Source: an uncultured Ectothiorhodospiraceae bacterium (lineage in GTDB: Bacteria > Pseudomonadota > Gammaproteobacteria > CAMYNG01). Taken from it: a DNA stretch of 64,000 nt. The stretch covers positions 1-64,000 of the forward strand of contig CAMYNG010000005.1 in the NCBI GenBank assembly GCA_947259765.1, written 5' to 3'. The notes beneath the pieces are model-generated. The model was not told the DNA's origin. It did not search any database and saw only the letters and a program-made list of their open reading frames with translations. The position numbers and the translations under genes were made by a program. Of the stretch, positions 19,466 to 25,821 are shown one piece after another. Positions within the stretch are counted from its first letter, which is position 1. Each line of letters opens with the position of its first letter.

Positions 19466-19536
19466 TATTATAATCCATTGAAAAATTAGTATTTTTTTAT
19501 AACCGGGAGTTTTTTAACGGTGACTTTCTAACAGGC

Positions 19537-19660
19537 AAAAAAAAGCCCCGGATTAGACGTGGGGGATAAAAACGTCCGGGGCCAACAGTTACCCGGCTTG
19601 GGGAACCGGGCAAGACCTTTCCGCCAAGGAGAAGAAGCGGAATCGTTCAACTACAAATTC
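19537..19660 (-). ncRNA. Candidate small regulatory RNA with three C-rich loops (sX13/ErsA/Spot 42 position)
   Basis: On the minus strand three hairpins follow each other. The first is 19642-19619, stem TTCCGC/GCGGAA with loop TTCTTCTCCTTG. The second is 19610-19592, stem CCCGG/CCGGG with loop TTCCCCAAG. The third is 19582-19545, stem GCCCCGGA/TCCGGGGC with CCCCC in its loop, followed by eight T. A terminator at the end and pyrimidine-rich loops able to pair with Shine-Dalgarno-like sequences are the design of Xanthomonas sX13. The location downstream of engB, in the ancestral polA-engB gap, is that of Spot 42 (E. coli) and ErsA (Pseudomonas). The 5' end is an estimate; I could not settle a promoter. 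No protein is encoded. Confidence 0.68.
19545..19582 (-). terminator. Intrinsic terminator of the candidate sRNA
   Basis: GCCCCGGA (19545-19552) pairs with TCCGGGGC (19575-19582); an inner CGT/ACG step extends the stem. Eight A on the plus strand at 19537-19544 are a U-run on the minus-strand RNA. No such run follows the hairpin in the plus direction, so orientation is clear. Confidence 0.85.
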
Positions 19661-19861
19661 TCTGACCGATTAAGTAAGTAATAGTTCAATCGGGGTGGAA
19701 TGCATTATTTCAAGGGTCGGAAACGTAAGAAATATCGAAACACGCCAGACTGCTGTCCTGGCGCGCCGCAGACACGCGGTTCCCGCGTAACAGGCCATCC
19801 ACGTAATTGCATGTCCATTCTCCGGTGGCACGTGTTTTCTGTCTCCGTAGAATAGGCGGAC

Positions 19862-20941
19862 ATGAAACGGGCACCTCTACCAACGGAAAAAAATATGCTT
19901 CGGGCAATGCTGAACCGGGACAGCAACTACGAAGGCGTTTTCTTTTTCGCGGTTAAGACTACCGGTATTTTTTGTCGCCCAACCTGCGCCGCGCGTAAAC
20001 CAAAACCGGAAAACGTCGTTTACTTTGCCACGCCTGACGAGGCGTTGGCGGCCGGCTTTCGCCCGTGCAAACGTTGCCAACCCCTGGCGCATCAAAACGA
20101 CACACCCGAGTGGGCACGCGCACTGCTACACGAACTTGATCAGGCTCCCGAAAAACGCTGGACTGACGGACAACTTCGAGTTCGTTCAATCGATCCCACC
20201 CGTGCGCGGCGGTGGTTCAAAAACCAATTCGGAATGACCTTCCATAATTATGCGCGCGCACGCCGGCTTGGCCTTGCATTCAAGCATCTAATCGCCGGTG
20301 AAAATCTGGACGTGGCGGCATTTGACCACGGCTACGAGTCGGTAAGTGGATTTCGCGACGCGTTTCAACAGCGGTTTGGAACGACACCGGGCCGTGGACG
20401 CTCCTCAAAAATGATTGTCTTTACCCGAATTCCGACTTGCCTGGGTCCGATGATCGCGGGTGCAACACACGAAGGCATATGCCTGTTGGAGTTTGTTGAT
20501 CGTCCTTCACTGACAAAGGAAATTGAACAACTGAAATCACGTTATCGCTATGCACTTTGTCCCGGAGAAAACCGGCACCTGGAACAGTTACGAGAAGAGC
20601 TGGAAAGCTATTTCTTGGGGCGCTTGCAAAAATTTACAGTGGGCCTGTCACTTCCAGGTACCAAATTTCAGCGTTCGGTGTGGTACGCGCTTCAATCCAT
20701 TCCATATGGAACAACCTGCTCTTATAAGCAACTCGCCAACGCAATTGGCCACCCCAACGCAGCGCGCGCCGTGGGGCGTGCCAATGGTGAAAACCGTGTT
20801 GCCATTCTGGTTCCATGCCATCGCGTCATTAAGTCGGACGGCTCTTTATCCGGATATGGTGGAGGAAAGGTTCGCAAACGCTTTTTGCTTGATCATGAGC
20901 GTAACGTGGTGCAACTCGAACAGCAGTACAGTATTGCCTGA
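19862..20941 (+). CDS. ada: Bifunctional alkylation-response regulator / O6-alkylguanine-DNA alkyltransferase Ada
   Basis: A 359-residue three-part Ada. The N-terminal zinc domain has Cys38, Cys42, Cys69 and Cys72 (FCRPTC, FRPCKRC); Cys38 is the expected methyl-phosphotriester acceptor. An AraC-type helix-turn-helix follows (about 90-175). The C-terminal suicide transferase has PCHRV near 318 and the preceding GTTCSYKQLA. It repairs methylated DNA and, once methylated at the N-terminus, activates repair genes. No alkB or alkA gene is adjacent, and no convincing Ada box was found upstream. It lies between engB and the PNAG-like locus, an insertion in the ancestral engB-polA order. Confidence 0.95.
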   Translation: MKRAPLPTEKNMLRAMLNRDSNYEGVFFFAVKTTGIFCRPTCAARKPKPENVVYFATPDEALAAGFRPCKRCQPLAHQNDTPEWARALLHELDQAPEKRWTDGQLRVRSIDPTRARRWFKNQFGMTFHNYARARRLGLAFKHLIAGENLDVAAFDHGYESVSGFRDAFQQRFGTTPGRGRSSKMIVFTRIPTCLGPMIAGATHEGICLLEFVDRPSLTKEIEQLKSRYRYALCPGENRHLEQLREELESYFLGRLQKFTVGLSLPGTKFQRSVWYALQSIPYGTTCSYKQLANAIGHPNAARAVGRANGENRVAILVPCHRVIKSDGSLSGYGGGKVRKRFLLDHERNVVQLEQQYSIA

Positions 20942-20988
20942 AGTGAGAATTCCTAGACTACTATCATTGTACGCTGGCAAAAAATATT

Positions 20989-21006
20989 CTGACGTGCAGG
21001 ATCTCT
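20989..21006 (+). repeat. Left copy of 18-bp perfect direct repeat
   Basis: CTGACGTGCAGGATCTCT here is identical to 25746-25763. The following GAT also matches after one mismatch, and the preceding 20-50 bp show weaker similarity. The two copies bracket the PNAG-like locus. This could be an attachment site, a target duplication or a dispersed repeat. Confidence 0.85.
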
Positions 21007-21098
21007 GGATTCCCACGGCAATACACGCTACAAATACTTTTTTTACTGCGCTACGCAATCCTGCTTCGATTGCAGGCCAGCCCGCTCCGCAAAGTAAG

Positions 21099-21149
21099 TA
21101 CAGGGCGTACATCCCCGTTCGTTTCGGGAGCGCCGAAACTCGCCCTGTA
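21099..21149. repeat. Nested palindrome, 51 bp
   Basis: The outer arms TACAGGGCG (21099-21107) and CGCCCTGTA (21141-21149) enclose an inner perfect hairpin GTTTCGG-GAGCG-CCGAAAC (21121-21139). It lies about 115 bp after the 3' end of the divergent small outer-membrane gene. No U-run follows, so it reads more like a mobile palindromic repeat than an intrinsic terminator. Confidence 0.6.
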
Positions 21150-21264
21150 AACTTCACGGCTGGGGCACAGACGCTTTGGCTGGTGCCGTTACGCATTAAT
21201 ACGTTGCAGTAAGGATGAGCTTTTCAAACGGTTGTCGTTCAATAAGCATGTGATCCTGATAGGG

Positions 21265-21735
21265 CTACTGCTTCCAATCTCCGCCAAGACCAAAGTTGAC
21301 AAAAATAACGCCTCTTGTGTCAGTATTGGAACCTTCCGGATTGTTGTTGTACTGCTTATAAGAAATCCTCGCTCCGATCTTTGCATTGCCCCAGTACAGT
21401 GACCCACTGGTTGGGAAATCGAACCGAAATTGCACACCGCCGGATATCTCTTCAGAGTCATTCCACCAGTCTCTGAGCGGGTCGCCGCCTTTGATAATAT
21501 ACGTATTAGCGAACACATTAAAAACAGCGTTTTTTACTCTCGATATATCCATTCCCTGTTCGGCAAATAGATCAAAATAGGTGCCGTCCTCGATTGCGTT
21601 TTCAGTCCCGCTCGTATTGCGTATCTCGCCAAACACTTCGTAGGGAAAACCCAGTGGTTCCCAGGCGTAGGCTTGCGAACCATATAATCCGAATGTCAGG
21701 AAAGCGACAGGAAGTAATACGGTTGAAATATTCAT
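21265..21735 (-). CDS. Exported small protein, possible outer-membrane barrel, of the PNAG-like locus
   Basis: A 156-residue protein that I do not recognise. A signal peptide is clear (residues 1-24, ending AYA-WEP). The mature part alternates polar and aromatic residues (FRFDFPTSGSLYWGNAKIGA) and ends GLGGDWKQ, as expected for beta strands of an outer-membrane protein. TGGAGGTGGAC precedes the ATG at 21735 and fixes the start; the divergent deacetylase gene has almost the same leader (GAGGTGGAC). It may take the outer-membrane role that PgaA plays in E. coli, but it is far too short to be a PgaA (about 800 residues with TPR and barrel). That role is inference from position only. Confidence 0.65.
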   Translation of the reverse strand: MNISTVLLPVAFLTFGLYGSQAYAWEPLGFPYEVFGEIRNTSGTENAIEDGTYFDLFAEQGMDISRVKNAVFNVFANTYIIKGGDPLRDWWNDSEEISGGVQFRFDFPTSGSLYWGNAKIGARISYKQYNNNPEGSNTDTRGVIFVNFGLGGDWKQ

Positions 21736-22046
21736 AGTTGTCCACCTCCAGATGGGCGTGTTCAGAAGGCTGTTTGTGCAGTTTTCTGGCATCTGAGCGA
21801 GAGGACGACGTAGCCTCGCTGCGAAAAGCGACGCAACTCACGCAATTCAAACATATGTGTCTTGATCATTAGATACCCTCTGCAGCGAAAAATGTTGATC
21901 AGGATCACAACTGGAGGATGCGCAATTCTTCACCATGCTGTCTACGTTGTGGCGAACTTCCTTGACGCCAGTATTTGCGGTAGTGTGGAATCTCCATAGC
22001 AAATCCGGTTCGGCCATTTACGTCATTGTCTCCTTAGAGGTGGACG
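21736..22046. other. Divergent control region of the PNAG-like locus
   Basis: About 310 bp between the divergent small exported protein and the deacetylase/hydrolase gene. Promoters for both sides must lie here. I could not pick a convincing -35/-10 pair. Both genes have near-identical ribosome-binding leaders containing GAGGTGGAC. Confidence 0.5.
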
Positions 22047-24038
22047 ATGCAAAAACCGCAAAAACAATTATTAATAAGGGCGATAGTAGGAATTGCCGTG
22101 GTCGGTTTGTTAATCCGTTTTGGTTTGCAAACAGAATCCAGCTACGAACCGCAAACTCACTATCAGGGCCTAAGCATTTTGGTCCGTACGCCACCCCACC
22201 TTGAGGGCCGGGATAACATCACACCGCTAGTCGATCGCTTTGTGTCATACGGCGTGCGACGAGTTTGGGTTCAGGTCAAGCAGGACGAGACGGATGAACA
22301 CCTCGCAGGCAGTGTCTTTTATCCCAGCAAACTGGCGCCGATCGCCGAGGGTTATGATGACGGCCGCCTGGGTCGTTTCATTCAAGAATTGACTGTTAGA
22401 GATATTCAAGTAATGGCATGGATGCCGGTACTGCACGACTATCAAGCCGGCGAACGCCACCCACAATGGCGTTCACGGTGGATTGATGAAAAGGGCGGCA
22501 TTGAGATTCAGGAGGACTGGCTTTGTCCCTACTACGCAGAAGTCGCTGACTATCAGGCCGCGCTTGCCCGCGAGGTCGTTGCGCGCTACCCCGAGCTGCA
22601 AGGTCTTTATATCGACTTCATTCGTTATGACGATGATTTCGCCTGTGCCTGTCCAAGCTGCCTTGCTGAATTGGAAGCACGCACTCAATGGCGCGAACGT
22701 ATGGGCCGACCACTCAGGCCCCTTGACGTGCGACGTGCCGCTCAGGCCAGCGACTGGCTTTGGCACGCATGGATTGATCTCCGTGCGGAAAAAATAGTGG
22801 ACGTGGTCAATGTCATTCGCGACGCGGTTGAAGAAGTCCGTCCCGATTTCCACATCGGTGCCTTTGTATTGCCGTTTAGTAGCGAACACTACACGCTGAA
22901 TAGCCAGGCCGGCCAGGATTTGTATCGGCTCGCCCGTGCCGGATTGGATGAGATCGTGTTGATGGGCTACTGGGATGATTGGGACCTGAGCCCACGATGG
23001 GTACGTAATGGACTCGACACCGCGGCTGAGCTGGTCGGTGAGGAGGCTGAACTCAGTTTTGTACTGGACGGTGATATGGGTGTACGACGCACCCGCCTCA
23101 CCTTGGAAGCGATGACCAACAGGGCACTGGACGCCGGCTGGTTTCATTACGGATTTTGGTCGGAGACGGAATTCAAGCGTTTGACTCGGGCGGTCGACAG
23201 CTATCGGCGCGAGGGTTCGATGCCCAGGCCGGAGTATGTTTCGTTAGTGATCCGCGTTGACACGGAGCCGGATTACCAACCAAGTTACGATGCAGTAAAA
23301 CCGGAGATGATCGAGACACTGCTTCAGCTGTTTGCGGAGGAGGAAATCAAAGCAACCTTCGTCACGGTAAGCAAGCTTGCGGAAATACAGACTGAGGTAC
23401 TGCGCCGTGCGGTAGCACAGGGACATGAGATCGCGTCGCATGCATACGACCACGAACAAATCGATGCGCTCGATCCTGATCAACAAGTCAAGGTGGTGGA
23501 CCGTGCGTTACGCACAATGGGGAAGCTCGGTTTTAACGTCTACGGATTCGGCGCGCCACGCAACAGTATCACCGATGAGTCACGGGACCGTTTGATGAGC
23601 TGGAACCTGGAGTACGATGCATCGGCGGCCTACGATCCGCTGCAAAGTTTGCTTGACGTTCACTACGCCGGACATTCCAACGGCGAAAATGCCAGGATTG
23701 TAGTGATTCCCTTTGTCATGCCGAATGACTGGGACGCACGTTATGTCGCCAAGATGTCTGCAGATGAGATGCTCGAGGCCTGGAAATCACGGCTCGACCG
23801 CGTCATAGAAATCGGCGAACCAAGCTTTGTTTTGGATATCCATCAATGGCTAATCAGTCGACCGGAAAATCTCGCCGCACTGCGTGCTTTCATAGACTAT
23901 GCCAGAGCCCGGCCGGAAGTCCGTTTCGTTACGCTACGGGAAGCGGCAAGGCAGGCACGGGCGATCCTCGACCGCGATGAATTTCCTGTGCCCACCAGCG
24001 GCGACAAAAAACCACCTCTAGCCGCGCCCAAAAGGTAA
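22047..24038 (+). CDS. PgaB-like fusion with reversed order: glycoside-hydrolase-like domain then NodB polysaccharide deacetylase
   Basis: A 663-residue protein with an N-terminal membrane anchor (about residues 8-26). Residues 40-380 form a TIM-barrel glycoside-hydrolase-like domain like the C-terminal half of PgaB (GLYIDFIRYDDDF near 187-199, EIVLMGYWDDWD). Residues 395-640 form a NodB deacetylase domain: VDTEPD near 403, SHAYDH near 463-468 and the GAPRNS motif. The catalytic Asp and the metal-binding HxxxH are present; the first motif is DTE rather than DDG, as in several deacetylase subfamilies. E. coli PgaB has the deacetylase first and the hydrolase second. The likely task is partial de-N-acetylation and trimming of a secreted aminosugar polymer. 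GAGGTGG precedes the ATG. Confidence 0.8.
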   Translation: MQKPQKQLLIRAIVGIAVVGLLIRFGLQTESSYEPQTHYQGLSILVRTPPHLEGRDNITPLVDRFVSYGVRRVWVQVKQDETDEHLAGSVFYPSKLAPIAEGYDDGRLGRFIQELTVRDIQVMAWMPVLHDYQAGERHPQWRSRWIDEKGGIEIQEDWLCPYYAEVADYQAALAREVVARYPELQGLYIDFIRYDDDFACACPSCLAELEARTQWRERMGRPLRPLDVRRAAQASDWLWHAWIDLRAEKIVDVVNVIRDAVEEVRPDFHIGAFVLPFSSEHYTLNSQAGQDLYRLARAGLDEIVLMGYWDDWDLSPRWVRNGLDTAAELVGEEAELSFVLDGDMGVRRTRLTLEAMTNRALDAGWFHYGFWSETEFKRLTRAVDSYRREGSMPRPEYVSLVIRVDTEPDYQPSYDAVKPEMIETLLQLFAEEEIKATFVTVSKLAEIQTEVLRRAVAQGHEIASHAYDHEQIDALDPDQQVKVVDRALRTMGKLGFNVYGFGAPRNSITDESRDRLMSWNLEYDASAAYDPLQSLLDVHYAGHSNGENARIVVIPFVMPNDWDARYVAKMSADEMLEAWKSRLDRVIEIGEPSFVLDIHQWLISRPENLAALRAFIDYARARPEVRFVTLREAARQARAILDRDEFPVPTSGDKKPPLAAPKR

Positions 24039-24053
24039 TCCAAAAGTTTAACG

Positions 24054-24290
24054 ATGCGACTGCAAAATCCCTTACGTCCTATTGTGAATATCCTTATGAC
24101 GGCCGGCTACCTCTCTGGTCTTTTGTTGGTCTGGATTGGCCTAGAAACGTTGACGATTGAGCGCGGCTGGTTTTTGTTGGGCATTTTCCAAATCACTTGC
24201 GGGCTTGTCCTCTGGACCATGCTTAACCTGGTCGGGCGTTTCCTTGCTGGCGTAGGACCGCCTCAAGATAAACATGAGGTCGGACCATGA
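24054..24290 (+). CDS. Small two-helix membrane protein, PgaD-like by position
   Basis: A 78-residue protein with two hydrophobic segments (about 13-29 and 37-65) and short polar ends. It lies 15 bp after the deacetylase gene and overlaps the glycosyltransferase start by 4 bp (ATGA), so it should be made with the synthase. In E. coli the two-helix PgaD pairs with the PgaC synthase and helps bind c-di-GMP. Size, topology and place fit that role, but I cannot claim sequence homology. Confidence 0.7.
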   Translation: MRLQNPLRPIVNILMTAGYLSGLLLVWIGLETLTIERGWFLLGIFQITCGLVLWTMLNLVGRFLAGVGPPQDKHEVGP

Positions 24291-25609
24291 GACGGATGAT
24301 CAACGTACTGGAGTCGTTGATAAATGGAATGGTTGAACACCTCCAAGAGGAAATGAATCATTTCACTTCACTATCAGGTGCCTGGATGGAGTTGACCGAG
24401 TTTGTCGTTTTATATCCCGCGGCCATGGCACTGCTCTGGATCGTTTTTGGCTTTTTCTTTGCGCTTCAGCGCGAATGGCGGTTACCACTTGATCCAAATT
24501 CCAGATTGTCTGTGGCTGTAGTGATACCTGCCCATAACGAGGAACAGGTTATCGCTCGCGCCATCGAATATTTACTGCAGCAGAATTACCAAAACATGCA
24601 GATCCACGTGGTTTCTGACGGTAGTGGGGATGCAACTGTTGAAATTACCCGTCGGTATGAAAATAAAGGCGTCATACTGCATGTCCTTGCACGTAACCGT
24701 GGTAAAAGCGTTGCCTTGCAGTATGTTTTGGAGCGAGTTAATACCGACCTGTTCATGGTCGTCGATGCAGATACAGAAGCAGAACCTGACGCGATTGAAT
24801 TTATGGTTCAACAATTTATTGATCCCCGGGTGGGTGCCGTGACCGGCCATCCTCGTGTCCGCAATGTCACGAATCTGCTAACCGCGATTCAAAAGATGGA
24901 ATATGCAGTAATTGTAAGTCTTGCAAAACGGGCTGAGCAGTTCTGGGGAGGGCTTTACACGGTGAGCGGTGCAGCGGCCTGTTTCAGAACAAGCGCACTG
25001 CGTGGCATTGGGGGCTGGTCGGAAAGATCCGTAACGGAAGATATCGAGGTCAGCTGGCGAATGCAGAAAGCTGGATGGTTACTGTCCTACGAGCCGCGTG
25101 CGCTGTTCCATATCCAAGCTCCTGTAAAACTCTTGTCATTATATCGTCAGCGGACGCGGTGGGCGCAGGGCATGGCGGAAGTCGTTCGGCTGCACTGGAA
25201 TATCGCCTTTACCCGCAATACTGCACTCATTCCAATCGCTGTACAGGTATTTGCAACTGCCTTGTGGATGCTGTTGATGACCTTGGTTGTTGTCAAATTG
25301 TTAATAGCAATTTTAGTTGGCGCAATTGACATGAGTGCTTTGCAAAGTTCCAGTCTATTAGACTGGCATATTGTTTTCTACTGGACCTTCGCACTGTTTG
25401 CCTTGCAGGCGTTTACAGCATGCGTCCTTGATGCCAACTACATACGTGGAGTCTGGAAAACGTTCCCGTTGTTTATTGTCTACCCACTGTACTATTGGAT
25501 TGTAATTTATCCAAGCTTCCTGTTTGGGGTCACCCGTGGTTTGATATCGAAGGGTTCAGGGCGATGGAAACGTACCGAACGTACTGTTTCGGATTCTTAC
25601 CAAGACTGA
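24287..25609 (+). CDS. Membrane glycosyltransferase family 2, PgaC-like polysaccharide synthase
   Basis: A 440-residue processive synthase. One membrane segment lies near residue 50. The GT-A domain follows with VVIPAHNEE, DxD-type VDADTE near 164, TEDIE (catalytic base region) near 249, and RQRTRW (QxxRW) near 287. Then come about three to four C-terminal membrane helices. This set is shared by PgaC/IcaA and cellulose or hyaluronan synthases; the PgaB-like partner favours poly-beta-1,6-GlcNAc or a related aminosugar polymer. There is no PilZ domain, so any c-di-GMP control would be through the helix partner as in PgaCD. The ATG overlaps the stop of the 78-residue gene. Confidence 0.85.
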   Translation: MRRMINVLESLINGMVEHLQEEMNHFTSLSGAWMELTEFVVLYPAAMALLWIVFGFFFALQREWRLPLDPNSRLSVAVVIPAHNEEQVIARAIEYLLQQNYQNMQIHVVSDGSGDATVEITRRYENKGVILHVLARNRGKSVALQYVLERVNTDLFMVVDADTEAEPDAIEFMVQQFIDPRVGAVTGHPRVRNVTNLLTAIQKMEYAVIVSLAKRAEQFWGGLYTVSGAAACFRTSALRGIGGWSERSVTEDIEVSWRMQKAGWLLSYEPRALFHIQAPVKLLSLYRQRTRWAQGMAEVVRLHWNIAFTRNTALIPIAVQVFATALWMLLMTLVVVKLLIAILVGAIDMSALQSSSLLDWHIVFYWTFALFALQAFTACVLDANYIRGVWKTFPLFIVYPLYYWIVIYPSFLFGVTRGLISKGSGRWKRTERTVSDSYQD

Positions 25610-25745
25610 AGAAATTGACTGCAAAATTGCATCAGGAAATAAAAATAAAGCCCTGGGGGCAAAAGTAACATTTGGCCAACTGTAAAAACCACGTTAACAA
25701 GCCAAGGGTAATGATTGTAGTCGTTGCAACGTTGCCAGAAGCATA

Positions 25746-25763
25746 CTGACGTGCAGGATCTCT
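25746..25763 (+). repeat. Right copy of 18-bp perfect direct repeat
   Basis: Identical to 20989-21006, in the same orientation. It lies between the glycosyltransferase stop and the polA stop, so the two copies enclose the PNAG-like locus and little else. Confidence 0.85.
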
Positions 25764-25821
25764 AGATCTTAATGATCAAACTTCAGAACAAGCCAATCAG
25801 CATTCCAGTGAATGAATTTGC

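Follow-up and report, generated by a model that had tools for sequence, protein, structure and literature searches.

The window, by which we mean the whole 64,000-nucleotide stretch of DNA that was analysed, contains three closely spaced genes on one strand. A fusion ORF of 663 aa (22047..24038, +) encodes a membrane-anchored protein with a GHL10/GHL13-type barrel followed by a CE4/NodB deacetylase domain. It is followed after a 15-bp gap by a gene for a 78-aa membrane protein (24054..24290, +) of PgaD/IcaD-like position and topology, which overlaps by 4 bp the gene for a 440-aa membrane GT2 synthase (24287..25609, +) that is PgaC/IcaA-like by TIGR03937 score and alignment and in a tree forms its own clade with the Actinomycetota copies. 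A divergent gene (21265..21735, -) encodes a 156-aa protein with a signal-like N-terminus, assigned by eye as exported; translation probably begins at the ATG 21735, inside the ORF 21265-21792. The arrangement of three same-strand genes and a divergent 156-aa gene given in the original prediction was recovered at these coordinates, and two hydrophobic helices were found by hydropathy in the 78-residue protein, as had been claimed. The synthase has membrane helices and the catalytic motifs DxD, TED and QxxRW; the DxD, ED and QxxRW motifs noted earlier lie at D160-A-D162, E251-D252 and Q288-RTR-W292.

Exact short peptides of the fusion were used as seeds to scan 84,980 species genomes, and three loci were found, all in metagenome-assembled genomes of Actinomycetota (L035, L036 and L037). 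L035 (Thermoleophilia) and L036 (Kineosporiaceae) encode the fusion, a small two-helix protein (L035:4463 and L036:7976) and the GT2 in identical order and on the same strand, with identities to the window of 61% (L035) and 53% (L036) for the fusion and 58% (L035) and 54% (L036) for the GT2. L037 contains a partial fusion, and a GT2 fragment 62% identical to that of the window starts another contig of the same genome. The hydrolase-then-deacetylase order beside a GT2, proposed as something to look for in other genomes, was thus found twice, and this recurrence in two Actinomycetota contigs indicates that the gene arrangement is not due to chance. No other full-length fusion was detected in 299 Pseudomonadota genomes or 397 from the L036 phylum (both by fusion profile), in 274 genomes of the window's class (by single-protein search; the three genome sets overlap in part), or among viral contigs, phages and plasmids. 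Within the six genomes of the host family, a close GT2 was present in G000 only. Given so few copies in the genome sets searched, the cassette is rare and patchy; its true spread may be wider, since short exact seeds would miss diverged copies.

The cassette and the 156-aa gene lie in a 6.36-kb stretch (6,356 bp, 19466..25821) between yihA/engB and polA. The polA-yihA distance is 305 bp in a relative from the same family (G276), compared with 6,356 bp here, and the locus is therefore regarded as an acquired island, to which the 156-aa protein possibly belongs. Actinobacterial contamination of the bin was considered and rejected, as the genes on either side share 59-85% identity with those of same-family relatives and the GC content of the locus and cassette is 0.48-0.55. 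The latter value is host-like, compared with 0.72-0.77 in the actinobacterial contigs, and hence the cassette is neither a contaminant nor a recent arrival. An exact 18-bp direct repeat (CTGACGTGCAGGATCTCT), with its left copy at 20989..21006 (+) and its right copy at 25746..25763 (+), encloses the cassette together with the 156-aa gene. It is the longest found for any 6.6-kb stretch tested in the window, the other stretches giving 11-14 bp, and the similarity between the copies extends over 47 nt at 74% overall. The repeat is a possible scar of integration; the relative's empty site showed no stretch resembling it.

Two further features were recorded in the same interval. The inserted stretch includes an ada-ogt gene (19862-20941) for an Ada/Ogt-type methyltransferase (Ada_Zn_binding, HTH_18 and DNA_binding_1 domains). 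Next to yihA, a structured intergenic block (19535-19633; Rfam match 19537-19642, -) is 88% identical to G276 (L105) and 77% to G035 (L103) and matches Rfam RF02837 anti-hemB over the full length but weakly (27.7 bits, and 26.5 for L105, with a gathering cut-off of 49.5). This conserved block is probably a small RNA; in E. coli, spf occupies the corresponding interval.

The fusion protein consists of a helix (residues 8-26), the barrel (about 42-390) and the CE4/NodB domain (about 395-640). In Pfam, the N-terminal half matched GHL10 (PF02638) with 38.2 bits over residues 87-310, above the gathering cut-off of 27.9 (33.1 for L035 and 28.1 for L036), and GHL13, the hydrolase family of PgaB itself (GHL13/GH153), with 25.8 bits, slightly under the cut-off of 27. 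The NCBIfam PgaB model (TIGR03938) covers just the hydrolase part of the fusion, and hhalign aligned the N-half with PgaB GH domains across 199 columns with a probability of 96.9. The PgaB catalytic HD pair is without a clear counterpart in the N-half (the hhalign alignment is off by one), and the PgaB beta-1 Asp pair was found to be absent on inspection. The AF2 model of the fusion (pLDDT 69.5) folds the N-half as a barrel, which in Foldseek was most like GH42 enzymes and Cwp19 (5oq3), a GHL10 enzyme whose GHL10 domain has been shown to cleave peptidoglycan (PMC6016235). The GH-type barrel that had been predicted for this half is thus of the TIM-barrel glycosidase type by structure prediction and by alignment to the PgaB GH profile, and, judged from these profile comparisons, the N-half appears homologous to the PgaB hydrolase domain.

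The C-terminal half matched Polysacc_deac_1 in Pfam with 50.9 bits (residues 414-521, cut-off 23.1), and in NCBIfam TIGR03006, the XrtA-system deacetylase, with 58.7 bits, which is under that model's own cut-off, as well as PdaB, PuuE and NodB. The metal-binding D/E, HxxxH and C-terminal His motifs that mark CE4/NodB membership are all present, at D405-T-E407, H465/H469, R505 and lastly H599, and the CE4 motifs are kept in the full-length copies of the fusion (window, L035 and L036). The half is collinear with the CE4-fold structures 3rxz, 3cl6 and 1z7a, which were also Foldseek matches, and hhalign aligned it to NodB with a probability of 96.0. The motif 5 His (H599) stands at the C-terminal end, as in the canonical motif order, which runs 404-464-502-597 here. 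PgaB and the related PNAG deacetylases (PgaB/IcaB) are circularly permuted, a trait specific to that CE4 subfamily (PMC5855634), and in the E. coli PgaB and S. aureus IcaB sequences the 'WHN/YHR' motif precedes 'FDD', the opposite of the window's fusion. Neither the plain PgaB/IcaB deacetylase profile nor a tandem-duplicated one, which allows for circular permutation, gave an hhalign alignment to the C-half; a PgaB deacetylase likeness masked by permutation was rejected on the result with the duplicated profile.

The description of the fusion as a domain-reversed PgaB therefore holds for the N-half, which appears related to the PgaB hydrolase, and fails for the deacetylase, which is a canonical, unpermuted CE4 of the NodB/PuuE/XrtA type. 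Since it joins a canonical CE4 where PgaB and IcaB have a permuted one, the protein would be a separate fusion and not a PgaB with swapped halves; going by the order of the motifs, rotation of a PgaB gene could not yield it. A genuine, much diverged PgaBCD operon, with the halves of PgaB swapped and pgaA lost or located elsewhere, would account for the long alignment of the N-half to PgaB and for the PgaC-like GT2, and the genome is only 72.6% complete. We consider this very improbable, because the CE4 is not permuted and shows no profile similarity to PgaB/IcaB even after tandem duplication, the motif order disfavours it, and the closest kin are found in Actinomycetota and not among proteobacterial pga operons. 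The best reading of the fusion is a PgaB-related barrel independently joined to another CE4 subfamily.

For the GT2, the best NCBIfam family was TIGR03937 PgaC_IcaA (300 bits, E=2.6e-89), under the equivalog cut-off of 422.3 yet far above MftF (95.5), NodC (86.5) and cellulose synthase (CelA, 63.7 bits), which bears out the earlier view of the enzyme as PgaC/IcaA-like rather than a cellulose synthase. The alignment of the catalytic region ('TVSG' and 'TEDIxVSW...PRAL...QRxRWAQG..EV') is likewise PgaC/IcaA-like and unlike NodC or BcsA. A maximum-likelihood tree, in which the root is uncertain, hyaluronan synthase was left out and the long branches of BcsA and NodC limit the reading, grouped the window's GT2 with those of the two actinobacterial cassettes (100/100). 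This clade sits on a long branch and stands apart from a 17-row set (96/95) containing PgaC, IcaA and their nearest relatives. The expected clustering with PgaC/IcaA is thus seen in the family score and not in the tree, where the synthase appears to branch separately, next to PgaC/IcaA. Among solved structures, none of a close GT2 relative was found. The 78-aa protein reached the cut-off of no family in Pfam or NCBIfam, and no similarity to PgaD was detected in it.

Several of these results weaken a PNAG reading: the GT2 scores under the equivalog cut-off and falls outside the PgaC/IcaA clade, the CE4 half lies outside the PNAG-deacetylase subfamily, the catalytic residues of PgaB are without a clear match in the N-half, and no PgaD similarity was detected in the 78-aa protein. 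One alternative is a different HexNAc polymer, for example a chitin/chitosan-like beta-1,4 chain or a mixed one. Aminosugar chains with beta-1,4 linkage are substrates of GHL10 and NodB/PgdA-type CE4 enzymes; GHL10 is the best family of the N-half and one of its top fold matches, Cwp19, is a peptidoglycan lytic transglycosylase, the C-half is nearest to canonical CE4s and NodB, and the GT2 is a separate lineage. We regard such a product as rather unlikely, but as the foremost alternative, since the GT2 scores 3.5x higher for PgaC_IcaA than for NodC and the canonical CE4 domain of MatB still works in a PNAG system. Streptomyces MatB makes PNAG from a PgaC-like GT2 and a PgdA/NodB-like CE4 (PMC5972031), so that there is an actinomycetotal precedent for PNAG made by a PgaC-like GT2 paired with a canonical CE4.

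As had been observed, no PgaA-size porin accompanies the cassette: in the 72.6%-complete assembly, the search for a PgaA-type TPR porin gave only weak TPR matches, the best of 30.9 bits compared with a cut-off of 366.65. The gap is unremarkable for a cassette common to monoderms, which need no outer-membrane pore, and kinship with monoderm Actinomycetota explains it at least as well as the different export route suggested before. The 156-aa protein had no Pfam or NCBIfam match and no relatives among the 274 class genomes or plasmids, and its AF2 model (no alignment, pLDDT 40) was unusable. It was rejected as a piece of a PgaA, NfrA or BcsC barrel, since it resembles none of these E. coli proteins and has no relatives in the sets searched, and an export role for it is a guess. 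In L036, a divergent lipoprotein gene (LLAGC lipobox, - strand from about 3907) lies upstream of the cassette. A bolder reading, in which a porin-free cassette of monoderm type works in a diderm with the 156-aa protein as its outer-membrane or periplasmic export component, a new GHL-CE4 class and a new aminosugar polymer, seems to us improbable. Similarly little credit is due to the view that nothing reaches the surface without a pore and that the fusion serves to remodel the envelope or the island was acquired but does not function. That view fits the lack of a recognised porin at the locus or in the incomplete genome and the absence of the cassette from every other family member and sampled class genome, but after long divergence the three frames are still intact and closely spaced, their motifs are conserved and their composition is like the host's, which argues for selection.

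We therefore favour, as the probable reading, a self-contained cassette, shared by horizontal transfer, that makes a PNAG-like exopolysaccharide by the synthase-dependent route, in whichever direction the transfer may have run. The minimal aminosugar-polymer synthase locus first proposed is in keeping with the gene content, the PgaC/IcaA-like synthase and the barrel in the N-half. The GT2 would polymerise a UDP-HexNAc, most likely UDP-GlcNAc, into a presumably beta-1,6-linked chain and thread it across the cytoplasmic membrane, with the two-helix protein as its putative partner in the manner of PgaD/IcaD. The fusion, tethered by helix 8-26 on the outer face of the cytoplasmic membrane, would partly deacetylate the chain through its CE4 half and bind or cut it through its GHL half. 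In a monoderm, what the three genes provide would be enough; in this diderm, the polymer may stay periplasmic, or may be displayed at the surface after exit through an unlinked or unrecognised outer-membrane pore. In this respect, the locus offers a naturally occurring case for asking if a synthase cassette of monoderm type is able to work behind an outer membrane.

Compared with known systems, the cassette shares with E. coli pgaABCD a PgaC-like GT2, a small two-helix partner and an exported protein combining a deacetylase with a GHL-type hydrolase, but the domain order of PgaB is opposite, its CE4 is permuted, PgaA is present, and the gene order is pgaA-B-C-D instead of fusion, small protein and GT2. 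Staphylococcus icaADBC resembles it in the IcaA-like GT2, small membrane protein, exported deacetylase and freedom from a porin; IcaB, however, is without a hydrolase domain and belongs to the permuted CE4 subfamily, and neither an icaC-like gene nor an IcaB-type deacetylase occurs in the window's cassette. Streptomyces matAB (PNAG) likewise combines a PgaC-like GT2 with a CE4 domain of the canonical NodB/PgdA-like kind, although MatB fuses the two, whereas in the window the CE4 is joined to the GHL barrel and the GT2 is a protein of its own. MatB-like pairing was also seen in the gammaproteobacterial L083 (G116) and L084 (G199), in frames of 1158 and 1175 aa, respectively, with NodB-like and GT2 domains; on a Natrinema plasmid (L118), a haloarchaeal DUF2334 protein adjoins a related GT2 on one strand, a deacetylase-like/synthase pairing. 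GHL10 enzymes such as Cwp19 and DigH belong to the best Pfam family of the N-half, and Cwp19 is among its top fold matches, but these enzymes are without a CE4 domain and act on peptidoglycan. The hydrolase-then-deacetylase order has a precedent in PelA (PMC12022489). Pseudomonas PelA (Pel) has an N-terminal hydrolase and a C-terminal deacetylase, homology having been examined by family scans only, and differs as a GalNAc-polymer protein of four domains whose deacetylase is CE21 and which works within the pel operon. Our verdict is that the cassette is a variant of the synthase-dependent PNAG-like exopolysaccharide systems. In Actinomycetota and one gammaproteobacterium, a PgaC/IcaA-like synthase stands beside a fusion in which a related hydrolase precedes a different deacetylase, the reverse of the PgaB order, which suggests that chain-cutting and deacetylating domains have been joined more than once.
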